Assembly (NCBI RefSeq): GCF_000787775.1
Contig: NZ_BBPM01000038.1
Span: forward strand, 1-64,000
DNA length: 64,000 nt
From: Streptacidiphilus carbonis
GTDB lineage: Bacteria > Actinomycetota > Actinomycetes > Streptomycetales > Streptomycetaceae
Reading direction: 5' to 3'
The notes below the pieces were generated by a model that searched no databases, was not told the DNA's origin, and saw only the letters and a list, made by a program, of their open reading frames with translations. Position numbers and translations under genes: made by a program. The first letter of the stretch is position 1. Every line of letters begins with the position of its first letter. Below, one piece after another: positions 33,512-62,347 of the stretch.

Positions 33512-33514
33512 CGT

Positions 33515-35775: not shown

Positions 35776-36494
35776 GGAACACCTTCGGATATCGATCGGC
35801 GAGACCTGGACGACTGGACCATAAGCAGACTCCACGGCGCTGTCAAGATATGTTTTTTCTCGTCAGGAGTGTTGCAGTCGAACGGACTTCATGCCCTCTC
35901 TCGGATTTGCGGAATAAATAATTCTGTGCCCTCCGATGGATTTGCCAATTGACGGATTTCATGGCTTCCGGAGTCGGCAGCCGTCCCAGGCGGGATCCGG
36001 GCGGCTACGTCGATCACGGTAGGCGGCACTGCGCGGTATCCGGATTCGCGTGGCGAAGCGGCCCGCGGGCGCGCGATGACCGCGCCGATCCGAACAGGCT
36101 GGAGGTGTTGTCCCAGGCGCGTGTGGGTGGCGGTGCCCGGCGGTGTGGTCACCGTCGGGCGGGCACACGCGGGCCCGGCCGAACCCCACGACGTGGCCCG
36201 GCCCGCCCGCTACCAGCAAGGCTTGTCGTCGGTTCCACTGCCGACGCGACCGCAGTGCCGACTCACCCGCCGCGTGGACGTGGCGGCGGAGAGGACGATT
36301 GCTCAGCCCTGGTGGCAGCGCCGTTCGCGCGCCAAACCGCGGTCCACGGACGTCATCCTCACGCGGGCCCGGCTTCCTGATCACGGGCGTCGCCTGCGCC
36401 GCCTTGTTCTGGGTCGGGAAGCACCCCCGGCGCCGTCGCCGTGGCCTCATGGACGTCGCACCCGACCAGGCCCGCACCATGGCCGGGGACCTCT
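35776..36494. other. Gene-poor stretch upstream of MFS operon
   Basis: About 720 bases without an intact gene. The first 170 bases are AT-rich and include the MFS promoter. The rest is GC-rich but broken in every frame. A hydrophobic FLITGVACAALFWVG segment near 36375-36420 on the plus strand looks like a leftover membrane helix. It may be part of the decayed locus that follows. Confidence 0.5.
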
Positions 36495-38357: not shown

Positions 38358-38414
38358 GGTGAACTCCCTTGTTCATCGGTACGGACAGCTGACCGGTCCC
38401 GCCCGGGGCGCGAA

Positions 38415-38428
38415 TGTTAGCGCTAACA
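38415..38428. promoter_or_regulatory. LacI-family operator upstream of GH54/CBM42 gene
   Basis: TGTTAGCGCTAACA is a perfect 14-base palindrome with the central CG step typical of LacI-family regulators of sugar use in actinomycetes. It lies 58 bases upstream of the GH54 start. A related site is at 48212-48227. Confidence 0.75.
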
Positions 38429-38507
38429 ATTTCGAGGACGGCCGACTGCTGTGCGGGCGCTCGGATTGAGGCATCACTATCCACCCATCCCGGACAGGGC
38501 GTCAAGA

Positions 38508-38550
38508 AGCAGGTGCCGAGGCCGGGGACGTCCCGGCCACAGCACCTGCT
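38508..38550 (-). terminator. Long stem-loop after beta-helix gene
   Basis: Outer arms AGCAGGTGC / GCACCTGCT and inner arms GGCCGGG / CCCGGCC are separated by short internal bulges. It lies six bases after the stop of the beta-helix gene, a strong minus-strand terminator. Confidence 0.75.
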
Positions 38551-38555
38551 GTCAC

Positions 38556-41000: not shown

Positions 41001-41088
41001 TGTCTGCCTTCTTCGCTGGGCTGGCCTGGACGACTGCGCGGCGAGGTCCGGCACCGCCTGTTCGGCTGGGCGCGCCGTGCCTCGCGGG

Positions 41089-41124
41089 TGCCGGAGCGGC
41101 ATCGTGGACGATGCCGCTCCGGCA
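41089..41124 (-). terminator. Perfect hairpin after GH54-ricin gene
   Basis: The 16-base arms TGCCGGAGCGGCATCG and CGATGCCGCTCCGGCA are perfect around a four-base loop TGGA, 22 bases beyond the stop of the GH54-ricin gene. It also insulates the beta-helix gene promoter. Confidence 0.8.
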
Positions 41125-41146
41125 GGTGACTGGGTCCGGCGCTCGG

Positions 41147-42745
41147 TTATCCGAGGGTCCATTGCTGGTTGCTGCCGCCGTTGCAGGTCCACAGCTCGGC
41201 CAGGGCGCCGTTGGCGGTGGAGGCTCCGGTGACGTCCAGGCACAGGCCGGACTGGGCTCCGGTGACGGTGCCGTTGGCGTTGAGGTTCCACTGCTGGTTG
41301 CTCTGGCCGTTGCAGGACCAGATCTGCACCTTGGTGCCGGGGCTGGTGCCCTGGCCGCTGGCGTCCAGGCACAGGCCGCCGCCGCCCGTACCGAGGGTCA
41401 GCTGACCGGAGGAGGTGTGCGTCCAGGCCTGGTTCGCCTGGCCGTTGCAGTCCCAGATCTGCTGCTGCGTACCCTGCACCGTGGTCGAGTTCGGGTCGTC
41501 CAGGCACTTGCCCGCACCCACCGCGTGCAACGCACCCGCGCCGCCGCCGGTGCCGCCGCTGAACGAGTAGCCGGCCGCCGTGAGGTTGGCCTGCACAGCG
41601 TTCTCGGTGGCGTCGGAGGGATAGCCGGCGGTGACGGCGCCCTCGAAGAAGTAGCCGACGCCGCTGCCGCTGTTGTCGCCGCCGGTGCCCAGCAGGATCG
41701 AGGAGTCCGTACGCATGGGGGAGTACCCGTTGGGAAGTGGGCCGGACCAGGTGGTGGTCAGCCCGCCGCTGGTGCCGTTGCCGTACTTGAGGGTGAAGTT
41801 GGTGGTGCCGTTGTTCTTCTCCCACGCGGAGACGAACGGGAAGTGCACGCCCGGGTTGTTCGCGGTGTTCGGCCCCGTGTTGGAGCTGTACATGCCGTTC
41901 TCTAGGTCGGCCTCCACCCACGGGCCCGAGCCGCTGCAGCCGCCGAACCAGCACGCCGTGCCCCACTCGATCGCGTTCATGGTGGCGTTGCCGGTATCGG
42001 TGTGGGAGTTCTCGCCGCTGCCGTAGTCGAAGCAGCACCACTGGTCCACGTCGTTCGACGACGTGATCATGTAGACGCCTTCGGGCGCGGCACCGGTGGG
42101 CACGTTCTTCGCGTTGTCGACGCGGTAGCCCACTCCCTGGGTGACCTTGACCCCGTAAGCCGCATGTCCGCCGACCGTCAGCGGCAGCGCCATCGCGTCG
42201 GCGCCCAGGTCCGAGCCGTTGGGCCCCGGACCCTTCCAGTAGCCGCCCCAGGAGATCGGCATGTCATTGTGGTTCGAGGTCTGATCGTAGATCTTGGTGA
42301 TGGTGCACGAGGTGCCCGCGCAGAAGGACACCTGCGGCGCGGCGTTGACGTCGCCGCCGGCCGAGAGCAGCCCGATGTCCAGGTAGCCGTGGTCCGATGC
42401 GCGCTGGATCTGGTACAGCGGCCCGTTGTAGGACGCGAAGAGCGCCCGGGTGGTGCTGTGCGCGGTGACGCAGGGCGTGCCACCCGAGGCATAGATGTCG
42501 CAGGGCCCGGAGGCGGCGGCCTGCGCCGTCCCAGTCACGCCCATCGCGCCGGCCAACGTGCTGAGCACGATCGCGAAGGCGACCGCCAAGCGGGCGAGCA
42601 CCCCGCCGCGGCGCGGAGGGGCCGACGGTGCGAAGGGCCGCTTCCCCCGTCCGCGCCGGCTGGTTCGGCCGAGCCGCGTCCGCGGCGGCCGGTCCACCGT
42701 CCCGGGCCGGTCGGACCGGCCCCGGACGTAGAAGTTGTCGTCCAT
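41147..42745 (-). CDS. GH54 alpha-L-arabinofuranosidase with C-terminal ricin-type CBM13
   Basis: A second GH54 enzyme, 532 residues. The N-terminus is unusual: about 48 polar, Arg-rich residues precede the hydrophobic core (VLARLAVAFAIVLSTLAGAMGV), so the export signal is long. The catalytic domain (about 78-398) shows ADLENGMYS (Glu282) and LGTGGDNS (Asp357). Instead of CBM42, a three-repeat ricin-like lectin (residues 404-532) is attached. That module is roughly four-fifths identical to the one in the esterase at 48249. It follows the fucosidase gene by 30 bases, so the two are probably an operon. ATG has GAGGAACAGGA upstream. Confidence 0.92.
   Translation of the reverse strand: MDDNFYVRGRSDRPGTVDRPPRTRLGRTSRRGRGKRPFAPSAPPRRGGVLARLAVAFAIVLSTLAGAMGVTGTAQAAASGPCDIYASGGTPCVTAHSTTRALFASYNGPLYQIQRASDHGYLDIGLLSAGGDVNAAPQVSFCAGTSCTITKIYDQTSNHNDMPISWGGYWKGPGPNGSDLGADAMALPLTVGGHAAYGVKVTQGVGYRVDNAKNVPTGAAPEGVYMITSSNDVDQWCCFDYGSGENSHTDTGNATMNAIEWGTACWFGGCSGSGPWVEADLENGMYSSNTGPNTANNPGVHFPFVSAWEKNNGTTNFTLKYGNGTSGGLTTTWSGPLPNGYSPMRTDSSILLGTGGDNSGSGVGYFFEGAVTAGYPSDATENAVQANLTAAGYSFSGGTGGGAGALHAVGAGKCLDDPNSTTVQGTQQQIWDCNGQANQAWTHTSSGQLTLGTGGGGLCLDASGQGTSPGTKVQIWSCNGQSNQQWNLNANGTVTGAQSGLCLDVTGASTANGALAELWTCNGGSNQQWTLG
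41150..41536 (-). repeat. Ricin-type CBM13 module copy A (GH54)
   Basis: This codes for the 129-residue lectin module of the second GH54. It aligns without gaps to the esterase module at 49221-49607, with about 102 of 129 residues identical by hand count, and shares long DNA stretches with the GH59 module. Confidence 0.7.
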
Positions 42746-42775
42746 TCCTGTTCCTCGCTCTCCGTCGGACGGCGA

Positions 42776-44764
42776 TCAGATGCCGGTGATCGTGTACTCG
42801 TTGTTGGTGCTGCCGTTCTCCGACCACATGACCGTGGGGGAGCCGGCGGCGGTGCTGCCGGAGCCGTCCAGGGCGGTGCCGGTGCCGCGGTTGACGATGT
42901 GGTGGCGACCGCTCCCGGCGTCGTCGAGGCGCCACTGCTGGTTGTTGCCGCCGTTCCACGGAGCCTGCAGGCAGGTCGCGCCGTTGGCGGTGTTGCCCCA
43001 GCTGTCGGCGACCATGCCGTTGGTGTTGTTGACGATCCGGTACCACCCCCCGCCGAGCGGAACGAACTGCCACTGCAGGTTGGTACTGCCGTTGTAGTTC
43101 CACTGCTTGAGCCCGGATCCGGACGCGACGCTGCCGCCGCTGTCGAGCACCAGGCCGGTGGTGACGTTGGTGACCTTCGCCCAGCCGGTCGGAACCGGGG
43201 GTGCTCCCGGGGTCGGGATCTGCCCCTTGAAGGTCAGCTTGAACACGTATGCCAGGGCGCTGAACGGCGGGTTGGACGAGGGCATCGTGATGTGCAGCCC
43301 GCCGCCGTCCTGGGAGTAGTCGGTCAGGGCGGTGTACACGCCCGCGGCGTTGTCGACCAGCTGGATCGACGCCAGACCGCTGAGGCTGATCTGGTTGGAG
43401 CCCAGGGTGGTGATGGTCGTGGTGCCGCCCTGCCAGCCGAGAGTGGTGGCGTAGAGCACGGTGTTGTCCTGGCTGCGGGTGAACCGCACGTCCTGCGGCG
43501 TGCCGGCTTTCGGACCGCTGAAGGATCCACCGCCCATGGCCGTCGGCCCCTCGCCGTAGGAGGCCCACGAGCGGGTGGCGTACACGGCCTCACCGAAACG
43601 TCCCAGCCAGTCGCCCATTCCCAGCAGCACGCTCTGCTGCTGGCTCGGGATCGTGCCGTCCGCCATCGGGGAGACGTTCAGGATCATCGTGCCGCCCTTG
43701 GCGGTCCGGTCGATCAGCGAGTGCAGGATGGCCTGGAGCGAGTAGTAGGTGATGCCGTTGGTGTAGCACCAGCTGGTCGCGGAGATCGCGTCGTCGGTCT
43801 CCCAGTACGGGGTCAGCAGCCCGCCGGGGCCGCCGCGCTCGTAGTCGAAGACCTCGCCCTTGTTGTCGAGGCCGTCCTTGAAGGTGGCCACCACGTCCTT
43901 GTTCCAGGACACGGCCTTGTTGTAGTAGTACGCCAGGAACTGCAGCCGGTAGCTCTCCTCCACCAGGTTCAGGTCGAAGTCCTGGTAGATCAGGTCGGGC
44001 TGGTAGCCGTCGATGACCTCGGCCAGCTTGTTGTACCAGAGCAGGTTCTCGGCGGCGGTGCCCTGCTGCGCGTAGAGGAGGCGCAGCTTGGGGTCCGACT
44101 GGGCCGGCACGTGGTCGTAGTAGCCGTTGAAGTGGTAGGCGTGGTGCAGCGAGCACATGAACTTGAGCCCCTGCCCGCGGATCGCCTGGGCGTGCTGGGC
44201 CACCAGGTCCAGCTTCGGGCCTGTCTGGACGGCGTTCCACGGGTTCGAGGCGCTGTTCCACATCGAGTACCCGTCGTGGTGTTCGGCCACCGGTCCGGCG
44301 AACTTCGCCCCGGCGTTCCTGAACAGCGTCGCCCAGGCGTTCGGATCCCAGTTGCCGCCCTGGGAGGCCAGCTTCGGCGCGAACTGCACGAAGTGGCCCG
44401 ACTTGTCGTTGGCGCCGAGGATGAAGTTGTGGAACGGCCAGACGGACGGGTCGCCGTAGGTGGCGATGTGGTGCTGGTTCTCGGCGGAGCCGCTGATGTA
44501 CATGTTGCGCGGGTACCACTCGTTGCCGAACGCCGGGACGCTGTAGACGCCCCAGTGGTAGTAGATGCCGAACTTGGCATCCTGGAACCAGGTCGGGGCC
44601 GGCGGGTGCTGGTCCACCGAGGACCAGCTCGCGCTGTAGCTCTGCGGGCCGGTGGTGGCGCCGGCTTCGGGCGCGAAGCGCAGCACGCTCAACGCGCCGG
44701 TGGCCGCGGCTGTGGCCAGCAGCCGCCGACGGGTGATCTGGAACGGGGACTCGGACGGCGACAT
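42776..44764 (-). CDS. GH29 alpha-L-fucosidase with ricin-like domain, Tat-exported
   Basis: An exported enzyme of 662 residues that releases alpha-L-fucose. The twin-arginine signal TRRRLLATAAATGALS (residues 11-26) contrasts with the Sec signals of neighbours. GH29 features are WFQDAKFGIYYHWGVYSVPAFGNEWY, EHHDGYSMW (161-169) and the nucleophile region DLIYQDFD, with Asp262 aligned to the family nucleophile. The general acid is not clear by eye. The C-terminal region (about 530-662) is a ricin-like lectin with QxW-type motifs (LQWQFVPL, NNQQWRLDD). It leads an operon with the second GH54, 30 bases apart. Confidence 0.9.
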   Translation of the reverse strand: MSPSESPFQITRRRLLATAAATGALSVLRFAPEAGATTGPQSYSASWSSVDQHPPAPTWFQDAKFGIYYHWGVYSVPAFGNEWYPRNMYISGSAENQHHIATYGDPSVWPFHNFILGANDKSGHFVQFAPKLASQGGNWDPNAWATLFRNAGAKFAGPVAEHHDGYSMWNSASNPWNAVQTGPKLDLVAQHAQAIRGQGLKFMCSLHHAYHFNGYYDHVPAQSDPKLRLLYAQQGTAAENLLWYNKLAEVIDGYQPDLIYQDFDLNLVEESYRLQFLAYYYNKAVSWNKDVVATFKDGLDNKGEVFDYERGGPGGLLTPYWETDDAISATSWCYTNGITYYSLQAILHSLIDRTAKGGTMILNVSPMADGTIPSQQQSVLLGMGDWLGRFGEAVYATRSWASYGEGPTAMGGGSFSGPKAGTPQDVRFTRSQDNTVLYATTLGWQGGTTTITTLGSNQISLSGLASIQLVDNAAGVYTALTDYSQDGGGLHITMPSSNPPFSALAYVFKLTFKGQIPTPGAPPVPTGWAKVTNVTTGLVLDSGGSVASGSGLKQWNYNGSTNLQWQFVPLGGGWYRIVNNTNGMVADSWGNTANGATCLQAPWNGGNNQQWRLDDAGSGRHHIVNRGTGTALDGSGSTAAGSPTVMWSENGSTNNEYTITGI

Positions 44765-44819
44765 GACGGGGGCCTCTCGGGTCGACGACGTGGGGATGGC
44801 TGGGGGAGTGCCGGGGGTG

Positions 44820-44861
44820 CCGGCCGGCGGGGCCGGCAGTGCTGCCTGCTCCGCCGGCCGG
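44820..44861 (-). terminator. Hairpin after GH59-like gene
   Basis: Arms CCGGCCGGCGG and CCGCCGGCCGG are complementary over 11 bases with a 20-base loop that itself contains a GCAG/CTGC pairing. It lies eight bases after the GH59-like stop on the minus strand. Confidence 0.65.
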
Positions 44862-44869
44862 TCAGCGGA

Positions 44870-51492
<6,623 letters not shown>

Positions 51493-51539: not shown

Positions 51540-51581
51540 CTGACGCCTCGGCGGTGGCCCCCACCACCGCCGAGGCGTCAG
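51540..51581. terminator. Bidirectional terminator between GH30 and ABC permease genes
   Basis: Perfect 18-base arms CTGACGCCTCGGCGGTGG and CCACCGCCGAGGCGTCAG enclose a six-base loop. It lies between convergent genes, and its right arm overlaps the permease stop codon by four bases. Confidence 0.82.
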
Positions 51582-52618
51582 TCCTGGACCTTGCCGCCGG
51601 TGATGCGGGAGATGACCAGGGCGACCAGGATGATCGCGCCGTTGAGCGCGCCGATCCACTGCGCGGGCACGCCGCCCAGGGTGAGCACGTTCTGGATGAG
51701 GAACAGCAGCAGGATGCCGGTGAAGGCGCCGAACATGCTGCCCTTGCCGCCGTTGAGGCTGATGCCGCCGATGACGGCGGCGGCGAAGACGGTGAAGATG
51801 TCACCGTTGCCCTGGGCGGAGGCCACCGAGGCGAGGCGGCCGGAGAGCATGAGACCGCTGAGCGCGGCCAGCAGGCCGGCGGTGACCATCACCGTCCACA
51901 GCACCCGGTCGGTGCGGATGCCGGCTGCCTTCGCAGCGTCGATGTTGCCGCCGATCGCGTACAGGGAGCGGCCGAAGCTGGTCGCGCCCAGGACGACGAT
52001 GCCGGCGGCGAAGAGGATCAGGCAGACCCACACGGACGCGGGGACGCCCAGCCACTGCGCGGTGCCCAGGTAGAGCATCGAGCCGGGCAGGTTGAAGAAC
52101 GTCTGGCCGCCGGAGACGCCGGTGAGCAGACCGCGCAGCACGATCAGCATGCCCAGGGTGACGATGAATCCGTTCAGGCCGAAGCGGATGATGAACAGCG
52201 CGTTGACGGCACCGACGACCAGACCGACCGCGAGGGCCACGGGGACGGCCCAGGCTCCGGGAAGCAGGCCGAGCCCGTGTCCGGCGCCGGCCGGAACCGT
52301 GAGCCAGGCGGCTATTCCCGGGGCGAGGCCCACCGTGGACTCCTGCGAGAGGTCCATCTTCTTGACGATCAGCACCAGGGTCTCGGCCAGGACCAGGACA
52401 GCCATCTCGGACATCGTCTGCAGCACGTTGACGAGGTTGTCCGTCTGCAGGAACACCGGGTTGACGAGCTGTCCGACGATCGCGATCACGATGATCGCCG
52501 GGATCAGGGCGAGGTCGCGGAGCCGGGCGAAGGCGATGCGCCGCACCGGGCCGGCGCCCGCCACGCCGCGCCGGACCCGCTGCGCGGTCGTGGGGTCGGG
52601 CGTCGTTGTCTCAGACAT
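51578..52618 (-). CDS. Sugar ABC transporter permease (RbsC-like)
   Basis: An integral membrane permease of 346 residues with eight to ten helices. The conserved RbsC-type segments GLNGFIVTLGMLIVLRGL, GRSLYAIGGNIDAAKAAGI and AAAVIGGISLNGGKGSMFGAF (EAA-like coupling region) are present. It forms the channel for the double ATPase and the lipoprotein encoded just upstream; its start overlaps the ATPase stop by eight bases. With L-fuconate dehydratase first in the same run, the cargo is probably L-fucose or a related monosaccharide (inference). Last gene of the operon. Confidence 0.9.
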   Translation of the reverse strand: MSETTTPDPTTAQRVRRGVAGAGPVRRIAFARLRDLALIPAIIVIAIVGQLVNPVFLQTDNLVNVLQTMSEMAVLVLAETLVLIVKKMDLSQESTVGLAPGIAAWLTVPAGAGHGLGLLPGAWAVPVALAVGLVVGAVNALFIIRFGLNGFIVTLGMLIVLRGLLTGVSGGQTFFNLPGSMLYLGTAQWLGVPASVWVCLILFAAGIVVLGATSFGRSLYAIGGNIDAAKAAGIRTDRVLWTVMVTAGLLAALSGLMLSGRLASVASAQGNGDIFTVFAAAVIGGISLNGGKGSMFGAFTGILLLFLIQNVLTLGGVPAQWIGALNGAIILVALVISRITGGKVQD

Positions 52619-54119
52619 GGAGGTCCATTCCTTCCATTGCGGCCACCAGGTCGTGGTCGTGCCAGCCGCTGCGCTTCTCGGCGACGATCCGGCCCTGGAA
52701 CATCACCAGGACCCGGTCGCACAGGCGCAGGTCGTCCAACTCGTCGGACGCGATGACGACGGCCGTGCCGGCGGCGGCGGTCTCCTCGACCTTGCCGAGC
52801 AGGAACTCCTTGGAGCGCACGTCCACGCCGGCGGTGGGGTTGATCAGCACCAGCAGTCCCGGATCGTTGGCCAGGGCCCGTGCCATCACGACCTTCTGCT
52901 GGTTGCCGCCGGAGAGCCCGGAGACGTGCTGCCCGGGGCCGGGGGCCTTGATGGCCAGATGATCGATCATCTCCCGGGCCAGGGCGTCCCGGCGGCGGCC
53001 GTTGATCAGTCCTTGCGGGCCCAGCCGTTCCGGGACGGTGAGGGTCCCGTTGTCCGCGATGGACATCTCCGGTACGTAGCCCTGGTGGTGGCGGTCCTGC
53101 GGCACGAAGCCGACCCCGGCCGCCAGGGCGGCGGGCACGCTGCCGGGGCGGAGCCGCCGGCCGGCGACGCGTACCTCGCCCGCCACGGCTGTGTGCAGCC
53201 CGGCCACGGTCTCGGCCAGTTCGGTGCGGCCGCTGCTCGCGGCCCCGGCCAGGCCCACGATCTCGCCGCTGCGGACGGAGAAGGCCACGTCGTGGTAGGC
53301 GTCCGAACCCAGACCGGTCACCGACAGGAGTTCCGCCGCGTCGGCGGCGACGTCCGGTCGGCGGGGCAGGCCGCTCCTGGTCCGTGCTGCCTCGCCGGTC
53401 ATCGCGGCCACCAGATCGGCCCGCGGCAGGTCCTGGACCGGAGCGGTCACGATGTGCCGCGCGTCCCGGAAGACCGTCACCGTGTCGCAGATCTGGTAGA
53501 CCTCCTCCAGGTGGTGGCTGATGAAGAGGAAGGTGACGCCCTGCCGCTGCAGCTCCTGGATCCGGGCGAAGAGCCGCTCGATCGCCGCGCCGTCGAGTTG
53601 CGCGGTTGGCTCGTCCAGGACGATGAACCGGGCGCCGAACGACAGAGCCCGCGCGATCTCCACGAACTGCCGCTGCTCGACCGACAGTTCGTCGGCCGGG
53701 GCGCCCGCGTCCACCGCCACCGACCAGGTGTCCAGCAGTTCGCGGGCCTGTCGGCGCACGGTCTGCCAGCTGATCAGGCCGCTGCGGGTGCGGGCGTGCC
53801 GGTTGAGGAAGAGGTTCTCCGCGACGGTGAGCTGGGGGATGATGGTGGACTTCTGGTAGACGCAGGCCACCCGGTGCCGCCAGGCGTCCCGGTCGGTCAT
53901 CCGCGGGGCCCGCTCCCCACCGAAGAGGACCGTTCCCTCGTCGGGCGCCTGAAGCCCGGTCAGGATGGAGACCAGAGTGGACTTGCCTGCGCCGTTCCGG
54001 CCGACCAGGGCATGGGTCTCGCCCTGCTGGACGGTGATGTGCGCGTCGCGCAGTGCCACGGTCGAGCCGAAGCGCTTGGTGATGCCCGCCGCTTCCACGA
54101 CGGGTGGGGCCGTGTCCAT
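52611..54119 (-). CDS. Sugar ABC transporter ATPase, two-domain (RbsA/MglA-like)
   Basis: A protein of 502 residues with two ATPase domains. The first has Walker A GRNGAGKST, signature LSVEQRQ and Walker B FIVLDEPTAQL. The second has a degenerate Walker A GAASSGRTE and signature LSGGNQQK, as is normal for monosaccharide importers of the CUT2 group. I start at ATG 54119, which follows GGAAGGCGG; a longer open frame to 54326 runs into the lipoprotein gene. It lies 17 bases after the binding-protein gene and overlaps the permease. Confidence 0.92.
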   Translation of the reverse strand: MDTAPPVVEAAGITKRFGSTVALRDAHITVQQGETHALVGRNGAGKSTLVSILTGLQAPDEGTVLFGGERAPRMTDRDAWRHRVACVYQKSTIIPQLTVAENLFLNRHARTRSGLISWQTVRRQARELLDTWSVAVDAGAPADELSVEQRQFVEIARALSFGARFIVLDEPTAQLDGAAIERLFARIQELQRQGVTFLFISHHLEEVYQICDTVTVFRDARHIVTAPVQDLPRADLVAAMTGEAARTRSGLPRRPDVAADAAELLSVTGLGSDAYHDVAFSVRSGEIVGLAGAASSGRTELAETVAGLHTAVAGEVRVAGRRLRPGSVPAALAAGVGFVPQDRHHQGYVPEMSIADNGTLTVPERLGPQGLINGRRRDALAREMIDHLAIKAPGPGQHVSGLSGGNQQKVVMARALANDPGLLVLINPTAGVDVRSKEFLLGKVEETAAAGTAVVIASDELDDLRLCDRVLVMFQGRIVAEKRSGWHDHDLVAAMEGMDLHV

Positions 54120-54136
54120 GGGAGTGCCGCCTTCCG

Positions 54137-55195
54137 TCAGCCGAGGTGGTTGCCCCACAGGGACGAGTCGGTGCTCTTCAGGCTGGAGATGCCCCCGTAG
54201 CCGCCGCCGTCGGCGGTGACCAGCGGCGCGGAGAGCTGGTCCTCCAGCAGTCCCGGGCGGACCTGGACGATGGTGCTGCCGTGGTCGGTCGGCCCGGGCT
54301 TGAAGACCTTGCCCTGGATCGCGCACTTCAGGTAGTAGAGCGCGTACTTGGCGTAGAGGTCGGCGGGCTGGGAGACGGTGGCGTCGATCTTCCCGGCTGC
54401 GATGTCCTTGAGCTCCTCCGGGATGCCGTCGTTGGAGACGACGAAGACGTGCCGGGGGTCGCTCGGTCCGACCAGCAGGCCCTTCTGCTGCAGGACCTGG
54501 AGGGTGCCGGAGAGGGCGAAGCTGGACTGCATGTAGACGCCCTTGACGCCCGGGTGCGCGGTGAGGTCGGTCTGCAGCTTCTGCGCGGCGGTGGCGGCGT
54601 CCCAGTTGGTGGCCTCGCCGTAGACGGTGATGCCGGGGAAGCTCTGCTTCATGCAGGAGTTGAACGCGTCGGTGCGGTCGCGGCCGTTGATCGAGGCGAG
54701 GTCGCCCTCCAGCATGACCACCGAGCCCTTCCCCTTCAGTTTGGTGCCGAGGAATTCACAGGCCTTCTGTCCGTAGGCGCGGTTGTCGGCGCGCACCACC
54801 ATGTAGACGTTGCCGGTGTCGGGCCGGGTGTCCACGGTGACGACCGGGATCTTCCGGGCGGCGAGCTGGGCCAGGGTGGGGGCGATCGCCGCGGTGTCCT
54901 GCGGCGCCATGGCCACGCCCTTGACGCCCTGGGCCATGAAGGTCTGCACGTTCGCCGCGAGCTTCGCGACGTCGTTCTGCGAGTTGGTCGTCTTGAGGGT
55001 GAGGCCCTGCTCCTTGCCGTACTGCGGGGTGTACTGGATGTAGGAGTTCCAGAAGTCGGTGTCGGAGCGCGGGTAGTCCACGCCCACGACCGGAGAGCTG
55101 CCGGCGGTCGCGGTCGACGAGCTGCTGGAGCAGGCGGCGAGTGGGCTGATGCAGAGGAGGGCGGTGGCGGTTGCGGCGACGGATCTGAGTCTCAT
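54137..55195 (-). CDS. Sugar-binding lipoprotein of CUT2 ABC importer
   Basis: A periplasmic-binding-type protein of 352 residues anchored as a lipoprotein. The signal ends in lipobox LAAC with Cys22. The mature part (about 40-340) has the two-lobe pattern of ribose/galactose-binding proteins (VVGVDYPRSDTDFW, GVKGVAMAPQDTAAI, VVVSNDGIPEELKDIAAG). A GAGG precedes ATG 55195; GTG 55210 is a second choice. It is the receptor of the importer whose ATPase and permease follow. The gap of 148 bases from fucD could hold a weak promoter. Confidence 0.9.
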   Translation of the reverse strand: MRLRSVAATATALLCISPLAACSSSSSTATAGSSPVVGVDYPRSDTDFWNSYIQYTPQYGKEQGLTLKTTNSQNDVAKLAANVQTFMAQGVKGVAMAPQDTAAIAPTLAQLAARKIPVVTVDTRPDTGNVYMVVRADNRAYGQKACEFLGTKLKGKGSVVMLEGDLASINGRDRTDAFNSCMKQSFPGITVYGEATNWDAATAAQKLQTDLTAHPGVKGVYMQSSFALSGTLQVLQQKGLLVGPSDPRHVFVVSNDGIPEELKDIAAGKIDATVSQPADLYAKYALYYLKCAIQGKVFKPGPTDHGSTIVQVRPGLLEDQLSAPLVTADGGGYGGISSLKSTDSSLWGNHLG

Positions 55196-55343
55196 GGCGG
55201 TCTGCCTCACAGGGAGCGGTGTGGGTGGTGGTCAGGGGCCGGTCGGAAGGGGACGCAGGCGCAGACCGCTCGTGCCGCCGTCCACGGGCGGCCGATCGGC
55301 CGGCGGGCGTTGAGAGCGGACAGCCCGGCGGACTCCCCGGCGC

Positions 55344-56687
55344 TCATGCCGGCACCTCCGCGCTGTCGGCAGCCGACGCTGCCGGGCCGCTCCATACCGG
55401 CCCCTCCGGGTAGGCATGGTCGGCGAGGGAGCGCGGGTGCATCTCCGCGCTGATGCCGGGTGCGGTGGGCGCCAGGTAGTGACCGCCCTCGACCCGAGCC
55501 GGGTCGGTGAAGTGCTCGTGCAGGTGGTCGACGTACTCGATGACGCGGTCGGTCGTGCTGCCGCTGACGGCCACGTAGTCGAACATCGCCAGGTGCTGCA
55601 CCATCTCGCACAGCCCCACGCCCCCGGCGTGCGGGCACACCGGGACGCCGAACTTGGCTGCCAGCAGCAGGATCGCGACGTTCTCGGTGACCCCGGCGGT
55701 GCGGCTGGCGTCCAGTTGCACGATGTCCAGCGCCCCGGCCTGGAGCAGCTGCTTGAACATCACCTGGTTGTGCACGTGTTCGCCGGTGGCGACCCGGATC
55801 GGCGCGACGGCGCGGTGAATGGCGGCGAGGCCGAGGATGTCGTCCGGTGAGGTGGGCTCCTCGATCCAGTACGGGTCGTAGGGCGCGAGCTCGCGTATCC
55901 AGTCGACGGCCTGCTGGATGCCCCAGGCCTGGTTGGCGTCGACCGCGATGCGAATGTCAGGACCGACGGCCTCCCGGGCCAGCCGCAGCCGGCGCACGTC
56001 GTCCGCGAGGTCGGCGCCGACCTTCAGCTTGATCTGGGTGAAACCGTCCGCGACCGCTTCTTTCGCGAGCCGTACCAGCTTCTCGTCCGAGTAGCCGAGC
56101 CAGCCGGGCGTAGTGGTGTAGGCCGGGTATCCGCGGTCCAGCAGGTGCCCGGTGCGTTCGGCGCGGCCGGGTTCGGCACGGCGCAGGATCTCCAGGGCCT
56201 CCTGCCGGGTCAGCGCGTCCTCCAGGTAGCGGAAGTCGACCAGGTCCACCAGCCGCTCGGGGGAGAGGCTCGCGAGCAGCTGCCACACCGGCTTGCCCTC
56301 ACGGCGCCCGTACAGGTCCCAGACCGCGTTGACGACGGCGGCGGCGGCCATGTGGATGGCGCCCTTCTCCGGGCCGAGCCAGCGCAGTTGGCTGTCGCCG
56401 GTCAGCCGGCGGGAGAAGCCGCCCAGGTCGGTGAGGACGTCCGCCACCGGCAGACCCACCACCAGCGGGGCGAGCGCCCGCACGGCGGCGACCTCCACGT
56501 CGTTGCCGCGGCCGACCGTGAAGGCCAGCCCGTGGCCGGTCTGGCCGGCGCTGGTACGCACTGTCACATAGGCGGCGGAGTAGTCGGGTTCGGGATTCAT
56601 CGCGTCGGAGCCGTCGAGATGGAGGGAGGTGGGGAAGCGCACATCGACCGCCTCGACCGCAGCGACGACTTCCGGGCTGGGAGACAT
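55344..56687 (-). CDS. fucD: L-fuconate dehydratase (enolase superfamily)
   Basis: An enzyme of 447 residues that dehydrates L-fuconate to 2-keto-3-deoxy-L-fuconate in the non-phosphorylative L-fucose pathway. FucD/ENOSF1-like segments are clear: [35 protein letters not shown] and [17 protein letters not shown] in equivalent form. Active-site candidates are Lys220 and Lys222 (IKLKVG), metal ligands Asp250 (DANQ), Glu276 ([10 protein letters not shown]) and Glu303 (TGEH), and His353. There is no Shine-Dalgarno before ATG 56687, but a promoter-like -10 lies ten bases upstream, so the message is probably leaderless. It heads the importer operon and faces a GntR gene. Confidence 0.9.
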
Positions 56688-56694
56688 GGGATGG

Positions 56695-56724
56695 ATTTAA
56701 GGGCGGTGAGCGGTCTGATGTCCA
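56695..56724 (-). promoter_or_regulatory. Predicted fucD promoter
   Basis: On the minus strand, TGGACA (56724-56719) and TTAAAT (56700-56695) are separated by 18 bases, with the fucD ATG eight bases after the -10. This fits leaderless transcription. The -35 lies in an ATGGACAT motif shared with the palindrome at 56821-56835, so the GntR protein may bind there. Confidence 0.5.
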
Positions 56725-56820: not shown

Positions 56821-56835
56821 GGACATGGGATGTCC
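56821..56835. promoter_or_regulatory. Probable GntR operator
   Basis: GGACAT-GGG-ATGTCC is a perfect inverted repeat with six-base arms, 44 bases upstream of the GntR gene. FadR-group regulators often bind short palindromes of this kind. It probably controls the GntR gene and possibly fucD. Confidence 0.55.
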
Positions 56836-56879: not shown

Positions 56880-57608
56880 ATGTCACTGACCGACAAGGCC
56901 ATCAGCCGGATCCGGGAGCTCATCCAGTCGGGTGAGCTGCCCCCGGGGGCGAAACTTCCACCGGAGCAGCAGCTCGCGGCCGAACTGGGCCTCTCCCGGA
57001 ACCTGATGCGCGAGGCGGTCAAGGCCCTGGTCGTGGCCCGGGTCCTGGAGATCCGCCGGGGGGACGGCACCTATGTGACGAGCCTGGAACCCGGGCTGCT
57101 CCTGGAGGGTCTCGGCGCCGCGGTCGAACTGCTGCAGGGCGACACGCTGCTGGAGCTCACCGAGGTCCGCAAGCTGTTCGAACCGGTCGCCACCGGCCTC
57201 GCCGCGACGCGCATCAGCGGGGAGCAACTCGCCGAGGTGGAACGCCACCTGACGGCGATGCGGGCGGCGAGGGACGACGTGGAACAGCTCAACCAGCACG
57301 ACGCGGCCTTCCACCGCGCCGTGATCGCCGCTACCGGCAACCAGACCTTGATCACCCTGCTGGAGGGCATCGGCAGCCGCACCGTGCGCGCCCGGGTCTG
57401 GCGGGGCCTGGTCGACGGGGACGCAGCGGCCCGGACGCTCGCCGAACACGAGGCGATCCACCAGGCGCTGGCCGCCGGCGACGCCGTACTCGCCCAGGCC
57501 GCCGCGTACGTGCACGTCAGCACCACCGACAGATGGCTCCGGGAGCACTACGCCCAGGCCACCGACTCCTTCACCGATCCGTCACCCGCCTCCGGGGAGC
57601 CGGAGTGA
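56880..57608 (+). CDS. GntR-family regulator, FadR/FCD subgroup
   Basis: A regulator of 242 residues. The winged helix (about 1-70) reads LPPGAKLPPEQQLAAELGLSRNLMREAVKAL and ends RGDGTYVTS. The FCD effector domain follows (about 95-225) with the usual metal-linked histidines near HDAAFHRAVI and EHEAIHQAL. Such proteins sense sugar acids or related carboxylates. Its divergence from fucD suggests L-fuconate or a derivative as signal (inference). GAGAG precedes ATG 56880. Confidence 0.88.
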   Translation: MSLTDKAISRIRELIQSGELPPGAKLPPEQQLAAELGLSRNLMREAVKALVVARVLEIRRGDGTYVTSLEPGLLLEGLGAAVELLQGDTLLELTEVRKLFEPVATGLAATRISGEQLAEVERHLTAMRAARDDVEQLNQHDAAFHRAVIAATGNQTLITLLEGIGSRTVRARVWRGLVDGDAAARTLAEHEAIHQALAAGDAVLAQAAAYVHVSTTDRWLREHYAQATDSFTDPSPASGEPE

Positions 57609-57709
57609 GACTTATCCGCATCGACCCGGTGGGCGCCGAGCGCTTCGGCGGCACTGCCTCCCGCGCCTACCCGGTGGGCCGGACGGCGGAGGGAAACCGC
57701 GTCGGCGGA

Positions 57710-58513
57710 TCACCCGAAGACTCGGCGCTGGATCTCGCGCCGGTAGTCCTCAAGGGTGTTGTCCAGGTGGACGGCTGTGGCTCGGGCGGCCGCTTCGGGG
57801 TCGCCGTCCCGGATCGCCTGATAGATGGCCGTGTGTTCGTCGACCGCCTCTGCGACGTGGCCGCCGAGGGTTCCGTGCAGTCCGATGGTGCTGGACTGGC
57901 GCTGCAGGCGGCGGGCCTCGCGCACCGAGGCGAGGAGGAAGACATTGTGCGAGGCGATGGCGATACCGGTGTGGAACTCGTCGTCGCCCCGGTTGAATTC
58001 GGCGGCCTCGCCGGTCAGGAAGCCGTGTCTGCAGGTCTCCGTGGCGGCTTCGATCGCACGCAGCTCCGCCGGCGTCGCGTGCGTGGCGGCCAGCCGACTC
58101 GCGGCGGTCTCCTGGACCCGGCGGAACTCGAAGAGCATGTAGACGTGGTCGAGGTCGGTGGGCAGGAAGATCCCGCCCAGGCGGGCCGAGGTGAGCATGC
58201 CTTCGTCCTCGGCGACGTAGAGGCCGCGGCCCTTCTGTGCCTTGACCAGGCCGAGCGCTGAGAGGATCTTGACGGCCTCGCGTACGACCGTGCGGCTGGT
58301 GCCGAACCGTGCGGCGAAGTCGTTCTCCGTGGGCATCCTGTCGCCCGGCCGCAGGCCGAGTTCGGCGATCAGTTGCAGGATCTGTTCGGCGATGAGCTCG
58401 TATCCGGGCCGGTACTTGCCCGGTTTCGGTTCGTCGGCGCGGGCGGCGGCTGGGGCTTGGACCGTGGGCGGTTCGGACTGCGTGCTCCCAGTCGGCACGG
58501 ATGGACCGTCCAC
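57710..58513 (-). CDS. Second GntR-family regulator, FCD subgroup
   Basis: A regulator of about 267 residues, convergent with the first GntR gene. The N-terminal 30 or so residues are polar; the winged helix covers LGLRPGDRMPTENDFAARFGTSRTVVREAVKIL, and the FCD domain (about 110-255) has histidines near DDEFHTGIAIASHN and DEHTAIYQAIRDGD. Start GTG 58513 follows GGAGG; the longer frame to 58606 is not supported. It probably controls a different sugar-acid pathway, possibly the GH-A glycosidase at 58743 or genes outside the window. Confidence 0.86.
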   Translation of the reverse strand: MDGPSVPTGSTQSEPPTVQAPAAARADEPKPGKYRPGYELIAEQILQLIAELGLRPGDRMPTENDFAARFGTSRTVVREAVKILSALGLVKAQKGRGLYVAEDEGMLTSARLGGIFLPTDLDHVYMLFEFRRVQETAASRLAATHATPAELRAIEAATETCRHGFLTGEAAEFNRGDDEFHTGIAIASHNVFLLASVREARRLQRQSSTIGLHGTLGGHVAEAVDEHTAIYQAIRDGDPEAAARATAVHLDNTLEDYRREIQRRVFG

Positions 58514-58576
58514 CGGCCACCTCCATCGTCGCGGGCGACGGTTCAGCGCATGACTGACCCCTGATGACGTCGAGAG

Positions 58577-58616
58577 CCTACATGCCGGGATATAGGTCCG
58601 ACACATGCCGTGTCGG
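58577..58616. promoter_or_regulatory. Two palindromes upstream of second GntR gene
   Basis: An imperfect 20-base palindrome (58577-58596; CCTACATGCCGGGATATAGG, 16 of 20 symmetric) is followed by CCGACAC-ATGCC-GTGTCGG (58598-58616), with seven-base perfect arms. Either could be the autoregulatory site of the GntR protein starting at 58513; the second may be a terminator instead. Confidence 0.5.
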
Positions 58617-58742: not shown

Positions 58743-61700
58743 TCAGCTCTTGCCGGTCAGCCGCCAGATCTGGTTCCTCTTGGTGGTCAGGGCGCTTGCC
58801 GCATCGCATGTCCACTGGTGGACGAGGGCGCCGGGTGCGGTGGATACGGTGCTGACGTCGACGCACTTGCCGCTGTGCGCGGCGACGAGCTGGTAGTCGT
58901 GGCTGTTGCCGAGCGCGGTCACCGGCGCCAGCCTGAACCGCTGGTTGGTACCGCCGGTGCAGGTCCACTGCTGGACCGCGGCTCCGTCGGCCGTGGAGAA
59001 GGTGGAGACGTCAAGGCACTTGCCGCTGGAGTGGTTGACGACGGTGTAGGTGTCGGTCGCGCCGCTGACCGGGTGGAAGTCGAAGACCTGTTCCTGCCCG
59101 CTGTCACAGGTGTTCTGCTGGTACTGGGTACCGTCGGCGGTGGACTTGGAGGGGTCTTCGAGGCAGAGCGAGCTGTGCTGGGCGACGGCGGTGGAGGAGA
59201 ATCCGGTCGAGTCGCCGATGTGCAGACTCGCGGGCGCGAAGGAGACCTGGTCGAGGTGGGGAGCGGAGCTGGAGCGCATGGGCTGCCCGATGTCGCTGCC
59301 GCCACCGGAGTAGACCTTGCCGATGGTGGTGCCGTCCCAGTTGAACAGCTGTGAGGCGGTGAACCTGACGGTGTTCGAGCCCTTGGCGAGGGTGACGGGG
59401 ACGGTGTAGTTCTCGAACTGGTTCCAGTGCAGGGTGCTGGCGAAGTTGACGCGGGTTGAGGCGCCGCCGTTGACGCTGACATCGGCGTGCTCGGCGTACA
59501 GGTCCGGGTTGTAGTGGTTGGAGGGCAGTTCCTCGGCGTTGGCGTAGCGCATGGTCATGGCGTAGGTGCCGGCCGACGGGGCGTTGACGTTGAGGGTGAG
59601 GGAGTTGGCGGGTCCGTTGCCGATGCCGGTGACGACGCCGCCGTTGGCCTGGTTGTAGGAGTTGTCGACGGCCGCGGTGCCGGTGAGGGTGCCGTCCTCG
59701 GCCTGGTACGTGACGACGTTGTCGGTGCTGACGGCGGAGGTGGCGCTGATCGGGGTGACGGCCAGGTCGTCCAGGGCGAGGGTGCCGCCGGCACCGGTCA
59801 CCTCGACCTTGTTGATGCCGCCGTCGAGGTGGACCTGGTCGGTGGAGGTGGACCAGGTGCCGGTCGTCGCGCCGGAGAGGGTCTGGTCGTCGGCAGTACG
59901 GCCGTTGACGGTGAGGGCGGCCTGGCCGGTGCTGCGGAAGCGGGCCGTCAGATCCGCGTAACCGTCCCGCGCCGAGTAGACCCAGAAGGTCGCGGACTTG
60001 CCGGAGGTGAGGTTCACCGCACCCGCGCCGGACTGGCCCTGGGCGGTGTAGGCGGCGGTGCCGCTGTCGGAGAGGTCGGCCTGCTCGGCCTCGTAGAGCG
60101 TGGTGCCCTGGACGGCGGGGTCCTGGTACTGCAGGTCGATCTTGTCGATGAGGGCGTCGCCGACGGTGGCCGCGCCGTTGTCGCCGGTGGTGGCCAGGCT
60201 GATGGTGTGGCTGCCCGCGGTGAGGTGCACGGTGGTGTCGCTGTGTCCCCACACCACCCACTGGAAGCCCACCGGTATGTCGATCCTGGTCGATGCGCCG
60301 CCGTCGACCCGCATGTACACGTTCGTCGGACCCTTGACGTCGACGTCCTTGGCGTAGGTGTTGCCGAACACCGAGAGGTTGTAGTCACCGTCGGCGGGCA
60401 CGGAGACCGGGAAGGAGATCACCGTGGTCGAGCCGGTGCGCAGGCCTCCGACGTCCTTGGTGCCGGAGGTGGCGAAGTTGCTGATCCGGCTCTCGCTGTT
60501 GATGTTGTAGCCGCTACCGCTGAGCGTGGCGTTCTCGGCCTCGTACGTACCCGTCCACGTGCTGTCCGAGGGGGTCGGGCTACCGGTGCCGCCCGGGGAG
60601 ACGACCACCTCGTACGCGGACATCGCGTCGAGGGTGATGGGCACGGTGATCGAACCGTCGGAGCCCACCGGGACGTCCGCGTCGGAGAGCCGGGACGGTG
60701 TCGCCGCCGCGCCGATATAACCGCTGTAGCGGTCCTGGAACACGCTCACGTGCACGGTTCTGCCGAAGACCGCGGGGTCGATGTTCTTGATCACCGTGTC
60801 GGAGGAACCGCTGGTGCCGCCGCCGGCGAGGATGACGCGCGCCTGCTTCTTGGCCGTGTCCAGAGTCGCCAGGCCCTGGAGGGTGTACGCGGCGTCGTTC
60901 GCGGCACCGGTGACCTTGACGGTGTTGCCGCCGCGCATGGAGCTGTACCAGTTGTACAGCCACCACTGGGCGTTGGGGGTGTTCTGGGCCGCGGCGGAGT
61001 CGCCGAGGGTTCCGTTGATGTTCCAGTACGGCAGATTGCCGTCGACCTTCTCGTCCTCGATGCCCGCGATCCACTGGACCATCTCGCCGGGGTCGGTCAG
61101 GTGGAAGCGGTGGGCGTACTCGTTGAGGTTGACGGGGATCGGGGAGGTGATCCCCGCGGCCGCCTCGGCCGCCCGGAAGGTGTCGACGGTGCTGCGCACA
61201 TCTGCCGGGCTGCCCAGGGTGTGCCAGGTCATGACGTCGGGCAGGCAGTTGTTGGCCTTGCAGTAGCTGAGGAAGCTGTTGACTTCGAAGGGGTTGTAGC
61301 CGGCGAAGTTGCCCCCGGCCAGCCGTGCCGCGGGCCAGATGCCCTTGATGAAGTCGTAGGTCTGGCGCCACTCGGAGTTGAAGGCGGCCATCGTCGTCGA
61401 GTCGGTGCGCATGCCGCTGAACCAGTTCAGTTCGGGCTCGTTGTAGGGGACGAAGACGATGTGGCTCGCGTAGGGGCTGGCCATCGCCTGCTCGACCTGA
61501 GTCCTCATGGCCGCCTGGTAGGCCGCGTAGCTCGTACGCTCGTAGCCGGCGCGGTACACGTCGGTCATGTAGATGAACTCGTCCCCGCCACCGCTGTCGA
61601 CGAAGGGCTTGGCGATCTCCAGCGCGTCCGAGCCGGGGTGCTGCTGCCCGTCCTGGTACTTGGTGTTGGTGGTCTTCACCCCCATTCCCTCGATGAGGTT

Positions 61701-61928
61701 GTCGGTCGGGACGTCCTGGCCGTAGATGCCGTACAGCGCCCCGGAGGCGCCGCCGCGGAAGGCTCCGGTGGTGGTACCCAGATCGACGGTGAGGGTGGGG
61801 GTGGCGGCGGTGGCCGGCGTTGCCGTCACGGTGGTGACGCCGACCAGGACGGTCAGCGGGAGGAGCGTCCTGACGGTGCCCTGGAGAAGGCGTCCTGCCG
61901 TCGAGCGCCTCTGTCCGATTGCTGGCAT
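58743..61928 (-). CDS. Large secreted clan GH-A glycosidase with three CBM35/6-like and one ricin-like module
   Basis: A protein of 1061 residues. A signal peptide (about 1-42) precedes a TIM barrel (about 45-370). Acid/base Glu164 is in YNEPELNWF and nucleophile Glu270 in NLNEYAHRF, a GH39/GH-A-like pair. A beta-sandwich closes the catalytic part (about 370-446). Then come three modules starting YEAENATLSG (about 462-602), YEAEQADLSD (about 612-726) and YQAEDGTLTG (about 741-910), which look like CBM35/CBM6, and a ricin-like module (about 915-1061). The GH family cannot be fixed by eye. AAGGGATG precedes ATG 61928. LacI-type sites lie upstream, so it is probably regulated by the LacI gene at 63460. 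Confidence 0.85.
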   Translation of the reverse strand: MPAIGQRRSTAGRLLQGTVRTLLPLTVLVGVTTVTATPATAATPTLTVDLGTTTGAFRGGASGALYGIYGQDVPTDNLIEGMGVKTTNTKYQDGQQHPGSDALEIAKPFVDSGGGDEFIYMTDVYRAGYERTSYAAYQAAMRTQVEQAMASPYASHIVFVPYNEPELNWFSGMRTDSTTMAAFNSEWRQTYDFIKGIWPAARLAGGNFAGYNPFEVNSFLSYCKANNCLPDVMTWHTLGSPADVRSTVDTFRAAEAAAGITSPIPVNLNEYAHRFHLTDPGEMVQWIAGIEDEKVDGNLPYWNINGTLGDSAAAQNTPNAQWWLYNWYSSMRGGNTVKVTGAANDAAYTLQGLATLDTAKKQARVILAGGGTSGSSDTVIKNIDPAVFGRTVHVSVFQDRYSGYIGAAATPSRLSDADVPVGSDGSITVPITLDAMSAYEVVVSPGGTGSPTPSDSTWTGTYEAENATLSGSGYNINSESRISNFATSGTKDVGGLRTGSTTVISFPVSVPADGDYNLSVFGNTYAKDVDVKGPTNVYMRVDGGASTRIDIPVGFQWVVWGHSDTTVHLTAGSHTISLATTGDNGAATVGDALIDKIDLQYQDPAVQGTTLYEAEQADLSDSGTAAYTAQGQSGAGAVNLTSGKSATFWVYSARDGYADLTARFRSTGQAALTVNGRTADDQTLSGATTGTWSTSTDQVHLDGGINKVEVTGAGGTLALDDLAVTPISATSAVSTDNVVTYQAEDGTLTGTAAVDNSYNQANGGVVTGIGNGPANSLTLNVNAPSAGTYAMTMRYANAEELPSNHYNPDLYAEHADVSVNGGASTRVNFASTLHWNQFENYTVPVTLAKGSNTVRFTASQLFNWDGTTIGKVYSGGGSDIGQPMRSSSAPHLDQVSFAPASLHIGDSTGFSSTAVAQHSSLCLEDPSKSTADGTQYQQNTCDSGQEQVFDFHPVSGATDTYTVVNHSSGKCLDVSTFSTADGAAVQQWTCTGGTNQRFRLAPVTALGNSHDYQLVAAHSGKCVDVSTVSTAPGALVHQWTCDAASALTTKRNQIWRLTGKS

Positions 61929-62347
61929 GTACTTACATCCCTTCAGACATACGTTGGTTACTGCTGCGCCGGCCCCGCGCCGGGCGTGCGGGTACGTTGT
62001 CGCCCGCGGTTCAGGCGACCGTTGCGGGGGTGCCGGCGCGTAGTGCCCATGGATGCGTTGGGATAGAGGGTCGAACCGGTTCCGCGAACCGATTCGATGG
62101 AGAACGTAGGGCGACATGAGCACGACGTCAAGGGATCTGGCAGGGCACTTTCCGCATTGCCACTGATCACGGATGTGTCACCGCACTCGATCGGCGATCT
62201 CCCGCAGGACCGTTCGGCGGGGCTGCGTCGAACCGGTTCGCATACCGAAGTGACGTCGATCAGGCCTTCTCGCTCGACACGGCAACCTTTCCGCCGTCTG
62301 CGGCAACTGAGTAGTGGACACCAGCCCGATCTTCCGAACGGACGGAC
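61929..62347. promoter_or_regulatory. Divergent promoter region with repeated CGAACCGNTTCG operators
   Basis: There is no gene in these 419 bases. Palindromic sites of one type recur: GAACCGGTTC (62073-62082), CGAACCGATTCG (62085-62096) and the perfect CGAACCGGTTCG (62229-62240). The first two stand about 145 bases upstream of the GH-A gene, and the third about 108 bases upstream of the expansin-like gene. The reverse complement of the second site is found again before the LacI gene. These are the probable LacI-family operators. Confidence 0.7.

Follow-up and report, generated by a model that had tools for sequence, protein, structure and literature searches.

Nonphosphorylating oxidation of L-fucose is described for Xanthomonas campestris, which has an enolase-type L-fuconate dehydratase (FucD), and for Herbaspirillum huttiense (route 3); according to excerpts of the sources, the route includes dehydrogenase, mutarotase, lactonase, FucD, SDR and hydrolase steps (PMC11199699, PMC6336799), and D-arabinonate is reportedly accepted by the enolase-type L-fuconate dehydratases from X. 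campestris and from human (PMC6336799). For uptake, RB-TnSeq is reported to support HSERO_RS05250 of Herbaspirillum seropedicae as an L-fucose ABC transporter which, like the importer considered below, has an RbsA- and MglA-like ATPase near fucose-oxidation genes (excerpts of PMC11378808).

The locus analysed here lies in a 64,000-nucleotide stretch of DNA from the soil actinobacterium Streptacidiphilus carbonis (the window). The H. seropedicae transporter, which we take to be of the CUT2 type from its likeness to RbsA and MglA, is proteobacterial and the window importer actinobacterial; the two are likened by description, not by sequence. The chemistry of the Xanthomonas and Herbaspirillum route would be expected in the window strain as well; contig C118 of its genome has genes for every one of the steps listed above. 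Unlike that route, the window keeps the dehydratase alone beside the importer, with SDR, hydrolase and lactonase genes present as apparent remnants. No description of the window unit or of a Streptacidiphilus fucose locus was found among the titles and abstract openings of the best-ranked papers; an acidophilic Streptomyces genome paper (PMC6998099) reportedly mentions a fucosidase.

Gene content of the window unit

The unit consists of ordinary parts in a reduced arrangement. As originally predicted, fucD and the genes for a lipoprotein, a double ATPase and a permease form one minus-strand unit (51578-56687), and their positions were found again (Table 1). These four genes and the GntR gene are all open and full length. 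The ATPase reading frame is listed from 54326, the ATG at 54119 being the likelier start; the lipoprotein gene has an alternative ATG at 55195, and the permease and ATPase genes overlap by 8 nt. The original prediction did not include the divergent GntR/FCD gene, nor the traces of lost genes that flank fucD and GntRa.

Table 1. Positions of the features discussed, in window coordinates
Feature	Position	Strand	Remarks
GH29 alpha-L-fucosidase	42776..44764	-	signal-like N-terminus, ricin-B lectin domain
CUT2 permease	51578..52618	-	BPD_transp_2
CUT2 double ATPase	52611..54119	-	502 aa; two ABC_tran stretches
CUT2 substrate-binding lipoprotein SBP1	54137..55210	-	Peripla_BP_4, lipobox LAAC
Remnant of KDF 4-dehydrogenase (SDR) gene	55211..55343	-	133-bp gap; deletions, frame change
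fucD1, predicted L-fuconate dehydratase (enolase superfamily)	55344..56687	-	447 aa; MR_MLE N and C; first gene of unit
Operator-like site TCCATCCCATGTC	56683..56695	-	overlaps fucD start codon
Exact operator-like inverted repeat GACATCCCATGTC	56822..56834	-	GntR-proximal; motif scan
GntRa, GntR/FCD regulator	56880..57608	+	PF00392 + PF07729; divergent from fucD
FAH-family (2,4-diketo-3-deoxyfuconate hydrolase) start joined to amidohydrolase-2 (AH2, fuconolactonase) end	57606..57712	+	probable fusion remnant
Second GntR/FCD regulator	57710..58606	-	31% identical to GntRa

The earlier call on the dehydratase is a strong one. FucD1 is homologous over its full length to the X. campestris enzyme of known structure (XcFucD, PDB 1YEY; 285/427 identical, 67%, E 1.6e-197), and the K, D, E, E, D and H residues of the KLK, DAN, EEP, GEH, LDA/IDA and PHAGG motifs are identical in the two. 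These residues are presumably the KxK base, three acidic metal ligands and an Asp-His dyad. FucD1 is a predicted L-fuconate dehydratase.

By Pfam, the importer has the make-up of a CUT2 system, with a Peripla_BP_4 lipoprotein, a fused double ATPase and a BPD_transp_2 permease. Its ligand is presumably L-fucose, judging from the locus context; homologous loci with the same importer, a fucosidase and fucose-oxidation genes occur in many actinomycetes. The GH29 gene, the sole PF01120 match in the genome, lies 10.6 kb from the end of fucD, close to the 11 kb first estimated.

Putative gene remnants and the locus on contig C118

No other pathway enzyme is intact in the window, just as had been noted. 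Measured against a complete nonphosphorylating locus, the window falls short: SDR, FAH and AH2 appear as remnants, and no match to an aldo-keto reductase (AKR) was found at the window locus. Locus L050 (genome G069) holds the full set in the order AH2-AKR-FAH-GntR, then fucD-SDR-SBP-ATPase-permease. This locus and L106 (Streptomyces pseudovenezuelae) share the regulator, fucD and importer core and the operator-like sites with the window; both keep SDR, FAH and AKR, with the lactonase present as well in L050, whereas the window unit has lost these.

The gap between fucD and the lipoprotein gene is the remnant of an SDR gene. Its local alignment with the L050 SDR region scores 259, a value reached by none of 500 dinucleotide shuffles (maximum 191), against 174 for the best of 41 other-gene controls; the coding part alone scores 231 (shuffle maximum 200, 0/500 as high). 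Eight SDR genes were compared, and for six no shuffle in 500 scored as high; the partial L110 SDR gave 135/500 and the L070 SDR 40/500. An SDR coding remnant was rejected for L049 and L052, where 146 and 289 of 500 shuffles equalled the coding part alone; both loci share with L050 the stretch after SDR (0/500). Local alignment and shuffles gave no clear support for SDR remnants in L046, L047, L048 and L051.

The stretch after the GntR gene is probably the start of a FAH gene fused to the end of a lactonase gene. The stub matches the L050 FAH at 30/39 nt (score 114, shuffle maximum 82) and the tail matches the L047 AH2 at 55/68 nt (score 163, shuffle maximum 120), with no mononucleotide shuffle in 500 as high for either, the split point having been picked after looking, once the L047 AH2 led the controls (182). 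Taken as one long stretch, the FAH remnant is not significant against any of eight FAH genes; between 9 and 315 of the 500 shuffles reached its score. The stub exceeds all 500 shuffles for four of four FAH genes, for L048 barely (82 against 81), and one of 46 controls, the L106 AKR (95), ties the L106 FAH (95) and exceeds the L048 FAH. The tail is above all shuffles for L047 and L053, with 3/500 as high for L050 and 8/500 for L054, whose score of 101 is under the best of 46 controls (113). On the evidence of these traces, the window unit formerly held more pathway enzymes.

A search beyond the window, proposed with the original prediction, finds the remaining pathway genes on contig C118, in a second, complete fuc locus (L009) with its own fucD and CUT2 importer: permease, ATPase, SBP, FAH, FucD2, SDR, AKR, RhaM-family mutarotase and Amidohydro_2. 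The dehydrogenase and hydrolase steps of the route are assigned to the AKR and FAH families, respectively. The SDR (E≤1e-50) and the lactonase (E≤1e-40) each have a single genome match, on C118; FAH and AKR have further matches on C72, C131 and C139, so that C118 need not be their sole source. FucD1 belongs to the type-1 FucD clade and FucD2, 68% identical to it, to a different clade of the tree, which rules out a recent fucD duplication. All nine genomes with a fucD1-type gene (the strain's own, or one of at least 82% identity) carry another fucD, and each has all four other enzymes somewhere.

Regulator and operator-like sites

A relative of GntRa with at least 60% identity is present in 34 of the 37 type-1 loci, in many of them divergent from fucD. 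The fucD promoter of the window combines this divergent GntR/FCD gene with a conserved operator-like inverted repeat: upstream of the TCCATCCCATGTC site lie a -10-like TTAAAT (56695-56700) and a -35-like TGGACA (56719-56724), and among 16 hand-picked loci that carry a fucD1-type gene, 14 have CATCCCATG[TC] ahead of fucD. GntRa is probably a repressor, and GACATCCCATGTC-like sites, including the one that overlaps the fucD start, are its probable binding targets.

The 8.46 Mb genome has seven such sites with at most one mismatch, including 56822..56834; the open reading frames and gene calls at the other six give no evident fucose link. Within two mismatches, the window holds the two fuc sites and one at 48241 against a chance expectation of 1.59, and three or more turned up in 23 of 100 shuffles; the number of sites alone therefore proves nothing. 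The argument for these putative operators is their conservation across relatives, not the window count. A scan at two mismatches separates the types poorly (31/37 type-1, 18/40 type-2, 27/61 others), and one mismatch does so better (19/37, 3/40 and 7/61).

In the window scan, the GH29 gene lacks the site found before fucD, so proximity is its sole link to the unit here. The C118 locus has none within two mismatches, and two at three mismatches against 4.93 expected. A shared operator tying the unit to either is rejected, and there is no sign of joint control of the three. The route first proposed, from fucosidase release through import to oxidation, is partly supported, by the dehydratase, the CUT2 importer and the homologous loci. 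As first worded it is not supported: the pruned unit does not by itself join release to a pathway, because the FucD product needs an SDR, matched (E≤1e-50) only on C118.

Role of the unit

The unit is probably a reduced type-1 L-fucose oxidation locus, retained as a satellite of the complete C118 locus. Its most likely role is separately controlled fucose uptake and fuconate dehydration feeding the C118 pathway. Gene identities, the second locus, the remnants and the conserved sites are all read from the DNA itself; ligand, enzyme activity, repression and cross-feeding between the loci are inferred. The secreted GH29 enzyme nearby presumably frees some L-fucose, which the window importer would take up; the C118 aldo-keto reductase (as fucose dehydrogenase), mutarotase and amidohydrolase lactonase would convert it to L-fuconate, FucD1 and FucD2 would dehydrate this to KDF, and the C118 SDR and FAH-family hydrolase would yield pyruvate and L-lactate.

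The remnants, which flank both sides, could mean that the unit is being lost altogether, redundant with a complete C118 locus that has its own importer and with its remaining genes serving no selected role. This is unlikely, given that all five genes are intact and that pairwise dN/dS is low (0.07-0.32 over the five genes, 0.20-0.22 for fucD), values that also average over time preceding the gene losses. The FucD1 tip branch (0.15) is the third longest in its 12-row subclade and within the range there (0.028-0.17), and the same five-gene core is present in the related genomes G018 and G066, probably reached separately from the window lineage. Separate lineages with the same losses (SDR, FAH, lactonase) raise the idea, tentative and rather doubtful, that selection and not decay lies behind the reduction to importer, FucD and GntR.

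SBP1 is 60% identical to its C118 paralogue SBP2, and the permeases are 53% identical. One otherwise conserved SBP block differs (SSFAL.GTLQ in SBP1 against QAG.FL.PTL in SBP2), so the ligand may not be the same for both importers. An improbable account has the window importer and FucD1 acting on a stereochemical relative of L-fucose (D-arabinose, L-galactose), with the two loci dividing substrates. This block, the different FucD clades and the D-arabinonate use reported for X. campestris and human dehydratases (PMC6336799) would suit it, but many conserved SBP blocks are common to type-1 and type-2, and GH29 lies near 15 of 36 type-1 loci (window left out) against 1 of 40 type-2 loci, a fucosidase link that is real across the relatives.

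The unit shows a catabolic locus as it stands once some of its genes have gone, its remnants readable and its lost steps present in a second, complete locus. It provides testable names for a poorly described actinobacterial fucose importer and for a candidate regulator of the fuc genes, together with the site of that regulator. It is also a caution against reading the absence of a pathway gene from one locus as proof that the pathway is incomplete. If the reduction was selected, the satellite would provide additional uptake and dehydration, controlled by a second regulator, and the fucD gene may have been retained next to its GntR gene because L-fuconate, the FucD substrate, or KDF, its product, is the inducer.

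The window unit and its dehydratase

The unit consists of the gene for an L-fuconate dehydratase (fucD), followed by those for a CUT2 substrate-binding lipoprotein (SBP), a double ATPase and a permease. The original prediction of these genes as one unit holds: all four are found as described on a single strand, Pfam agrees, and the ATPase and permease genes overlap.

Features of the window unit and its neighbourhood (window coordinates, unless a locus is named)
Feature	Position	Strand	Remark
Permease	51578-52618	-	Pfam-confirmed
Double ATPase	52611-54119 (likely)	-	Pfam-confirmed
Lipoprotein (SBP1)	54137-55210	-	Pfam-confirmed; lipobox LAAC
fucD	55344-56687	-	Pfam-confirmed
GntRa, GntR/FCD regulator	56880-57608	+	divergent from fucD
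Second GntR/FCD regulator	57710-58606		31% identical to GntRa
GH29 enzyme	42776-44764		ricin-B lectin domain
Lectin-enzyme cluster	36804-51492; 58743-62123; L010 946-10629		13 putatively secreted enzymes

The window protein FucD1 (P0001) aligns along almost its full length with 1YEY, the L-fuconate dehydratase of Xanthomonas (660 bits, 285/427 identical), and the catalytic motif residues are retained. After four entries of the Xanthomonas enzyme, the next structures are 4ip4 (564 bits), an enolase-superfamily protein with no function assigned, and human ENOSF1 (4a35, 537 bits), a human L-fuconate dehydratase; the following match scores 137 bits. Fucose chemistry is likely for the unit. When the five core genes are compared pairwise with those of three relatives, dN/dS ranges from 0.07 to 0.32.

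Remnants of lost enzymes

The unit is pruned: relatives with the same core carry more enzymes. In locus L050 (genome G069) the order is amidohydrolase-2 (AH2, the fuconolactonase), aldo-keto reductase as fucose dehydrogenase (AKR), 2,4-diketo-3-deoxyfuconate hydrolase (FAH) and GntR, then fucD, KDF 4-dehydrogenase (SDR), SBP, ATPase and permease. Streptomyces pseudovenezuelae (L106) retains AKR, FAH and SDR, and Streptacidiphilus pinicola (L109) retains SDR and the lactonase.

The 133 bp that separate fucD from the lipoprotein gene score 259 when aligned to the L050 SDR region, a value reached by 0/500 dinucleotide shuffles (maximum 191); the best score among 41 other-gene controls was 174. 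Against eight SDR genes, 0/500 shuffles were as high for six, the exceptions being L110 and L070. Restricting the comparison to SDR coding sequence gives a score of 231 (81/95 nt; 0/500 shuffles, maximum 200), in an alignment that ends at the SDR stop; the stretch 3' of SDR scores at chance level. Translation of the gap gives an internal SDR piece (ALNARRPIGR vs ALNARQPIGR) and, in a different frame, the SDR end VDGGTSGLRLRP. The sequence 3' of the GntRa stop resembles a FAH start (30/39 nt to L050) and continues as a lactonase-gene end (55/68 nt to L047), each with 0/500 shuffles as high. This division is post hoc, made once a one-piece test of the stretch against FAH had failed, and some other comparisons and controls were weaker. 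Both halves retain the expected order and position.

Genomes G018 and G066 (L049, L052) likewise have only GntR and fucD, SBP, ATPase and permease, and in both genomes the gene that lies 3' of the lactonase in L047 and L050 directly follows GntR. Their fucD-SBP gap retains the sequence found 3' of SDR in L050 (0/500 shuffles as high) and shows no SDR coding remnant when the coding part is aligned alone, so SDR was lost there with a breakpoint unlike that of the window. Since L050, with all enzymes, groups with G018 and G066 in the FucD tree (support 99), their enzyme loss was probably independent of the window's. No matches of at least 45% to the other enzymes were found in L113, L115 and L135, or in L046 and L051, which lie near contig ends. 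A conserved gene, presumably LarA-like (start RIRLAYGESGLDIDVDP in L049/L052), lies beside the fuc genes of several type-1 loci (defined below), after GntRa in L049/L052 and after AH2 in L047/L050.

A complete locus on contig C118

The second fucD of the genome (8.46 Mb, 139 contigs) lies on contig C118, with permease, ATPase and SBP on one side of the locus and a FAH-family hydrolase, FucD2, SDR, aldo-keto reductase, RhaM-family mutarotase and amidohydrolase on the other. Aldo-keto reductase and FAH are families to which enzymes of the fucose route are assigned. The remaining pathway genes, which the original prediction proposed to seek beyond the window, are present on C118, and the enzymes match route steps described in PMC11199699 and PMC6336799. 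Window and C118 copies are 68% (FucD), 60% (SBP), 59% (ATPase) and 53% (permease) identical. The nearest paralogue of SBP1 is by far SBP2 of C118, the three other genomic matches (E<=1e-10) being at most 31% identical. For SDR (E<=1e-50) and lactonase (E<=1e-40) the single genome match is on C118; FAH is also matched on C72 and C131, and AKR once more on C139.

FucD was found in 77/150 genomes at 101 places; 62 mapped places and 80 named loci gave 142 mapped loci, 138 of them non-redundant. All nine genomes with a window-type fucD (the genome's own or at least 82% identical) hold another fucD, and all nine have SDR, FAH, AKR and lactonase matches. FucD1 and FucD2 fall into separate clades, and the FucD1 tip branch (0.15) is the third longest of 12 in its subclade (0.028-0.17).

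Control, fucosidase and proposed working

Of 16 hand-picked loci that carry a fucD1-type gene, 14 have the site CATCCCATG[TC] 5' of fucD, in 13 of these 14 just after -35-like and -10-like boxes (by eye). In the window the fucD start codon falls within this operator-like site, and 139 bp upstream there is an exact inverted repeat, GACATCCCATGTC. Sites within one mismatch number seven in the genome, one of them in the window; CATCCCATGTCY occurs four times, twice in the window. Position and conservation suggest that GntRa binds the operator-like sites. The second GntR/FCD regulator lies beside the unit. One relative has a third fucD (L056; G105 contig C119), beside which lie a GntR/FCD gene and a distantly related GH29 (37%); the locus contains four GACATCCCATGTC-like sites (at most two mismatches).

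The window GH29 is the genome's only PF01120 match, and its best solved relatives, 9lxl and 4ni3, are both named alpha-fucosidases. Loci were assigned by author-set thresholds to type 1 (best SBP match SBP1, at least 65%) or type 2 (SBP2, at least 60%). GH29 matches occur in 16/37 type-1, 1/40 type-2 and 7/61 other loci, the 16 including the window, which was searched over 24 kb vs at most 20 kb elsewhere. With the window excluded the type-1 count is 15/36 (Fisher p 2.7e-5 vs type 2, a guide only, the loci being related); 13/15 share at least 54% identity with the catalytic domain of the window GH29, and 2/15 share 31-32%. The predicted link between fucosidase and unit is thus a conserved pattern across type-1 loci, but no operator-like site was found at the window GH29.

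Ricin-B lectin domains are present in 12 of the 13 enzymes of the surrounding cluster: three GH54-type arabinofuranosidases, a beta-helix protein (weak, below cut-off GH141 hint), GH29, a GH59-type enzyme, a PHB-depolymerase-like esterase, GH30, a protein matching GH5/39-named structures with CBM35, GH5, a weak, below cut-off GH39 hint, GH27 and GH10. Such a set of enzymes would fit arabinogalactan or hemicellulose from plants as a substrate. GC content drops from about 0.72-0.75 to 0.67-0.71 from 32000-36000 onward, roughly where the lectin-enzyme region starts, possibly a genomic island boundary.

L-fucose, the predicted ligand, would enter via the CUT2 importer; a proteobacterial system of this kind imports L-fucose according to RB-TnSeq (PMC11378808). 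The sugar would be oxidised and opened by enzymes predicted on C118, FucD1 and FucD2 would carry out the dehydration, and their product may pass between the loci for the SDR and hydrolase of C118 to complete the route. The earlier reading of the unit as a link from fucose release to import and oxidation is partly supported: its chemistry is likely, but the unit is likely a reduced satellite of the complete C118 locus.
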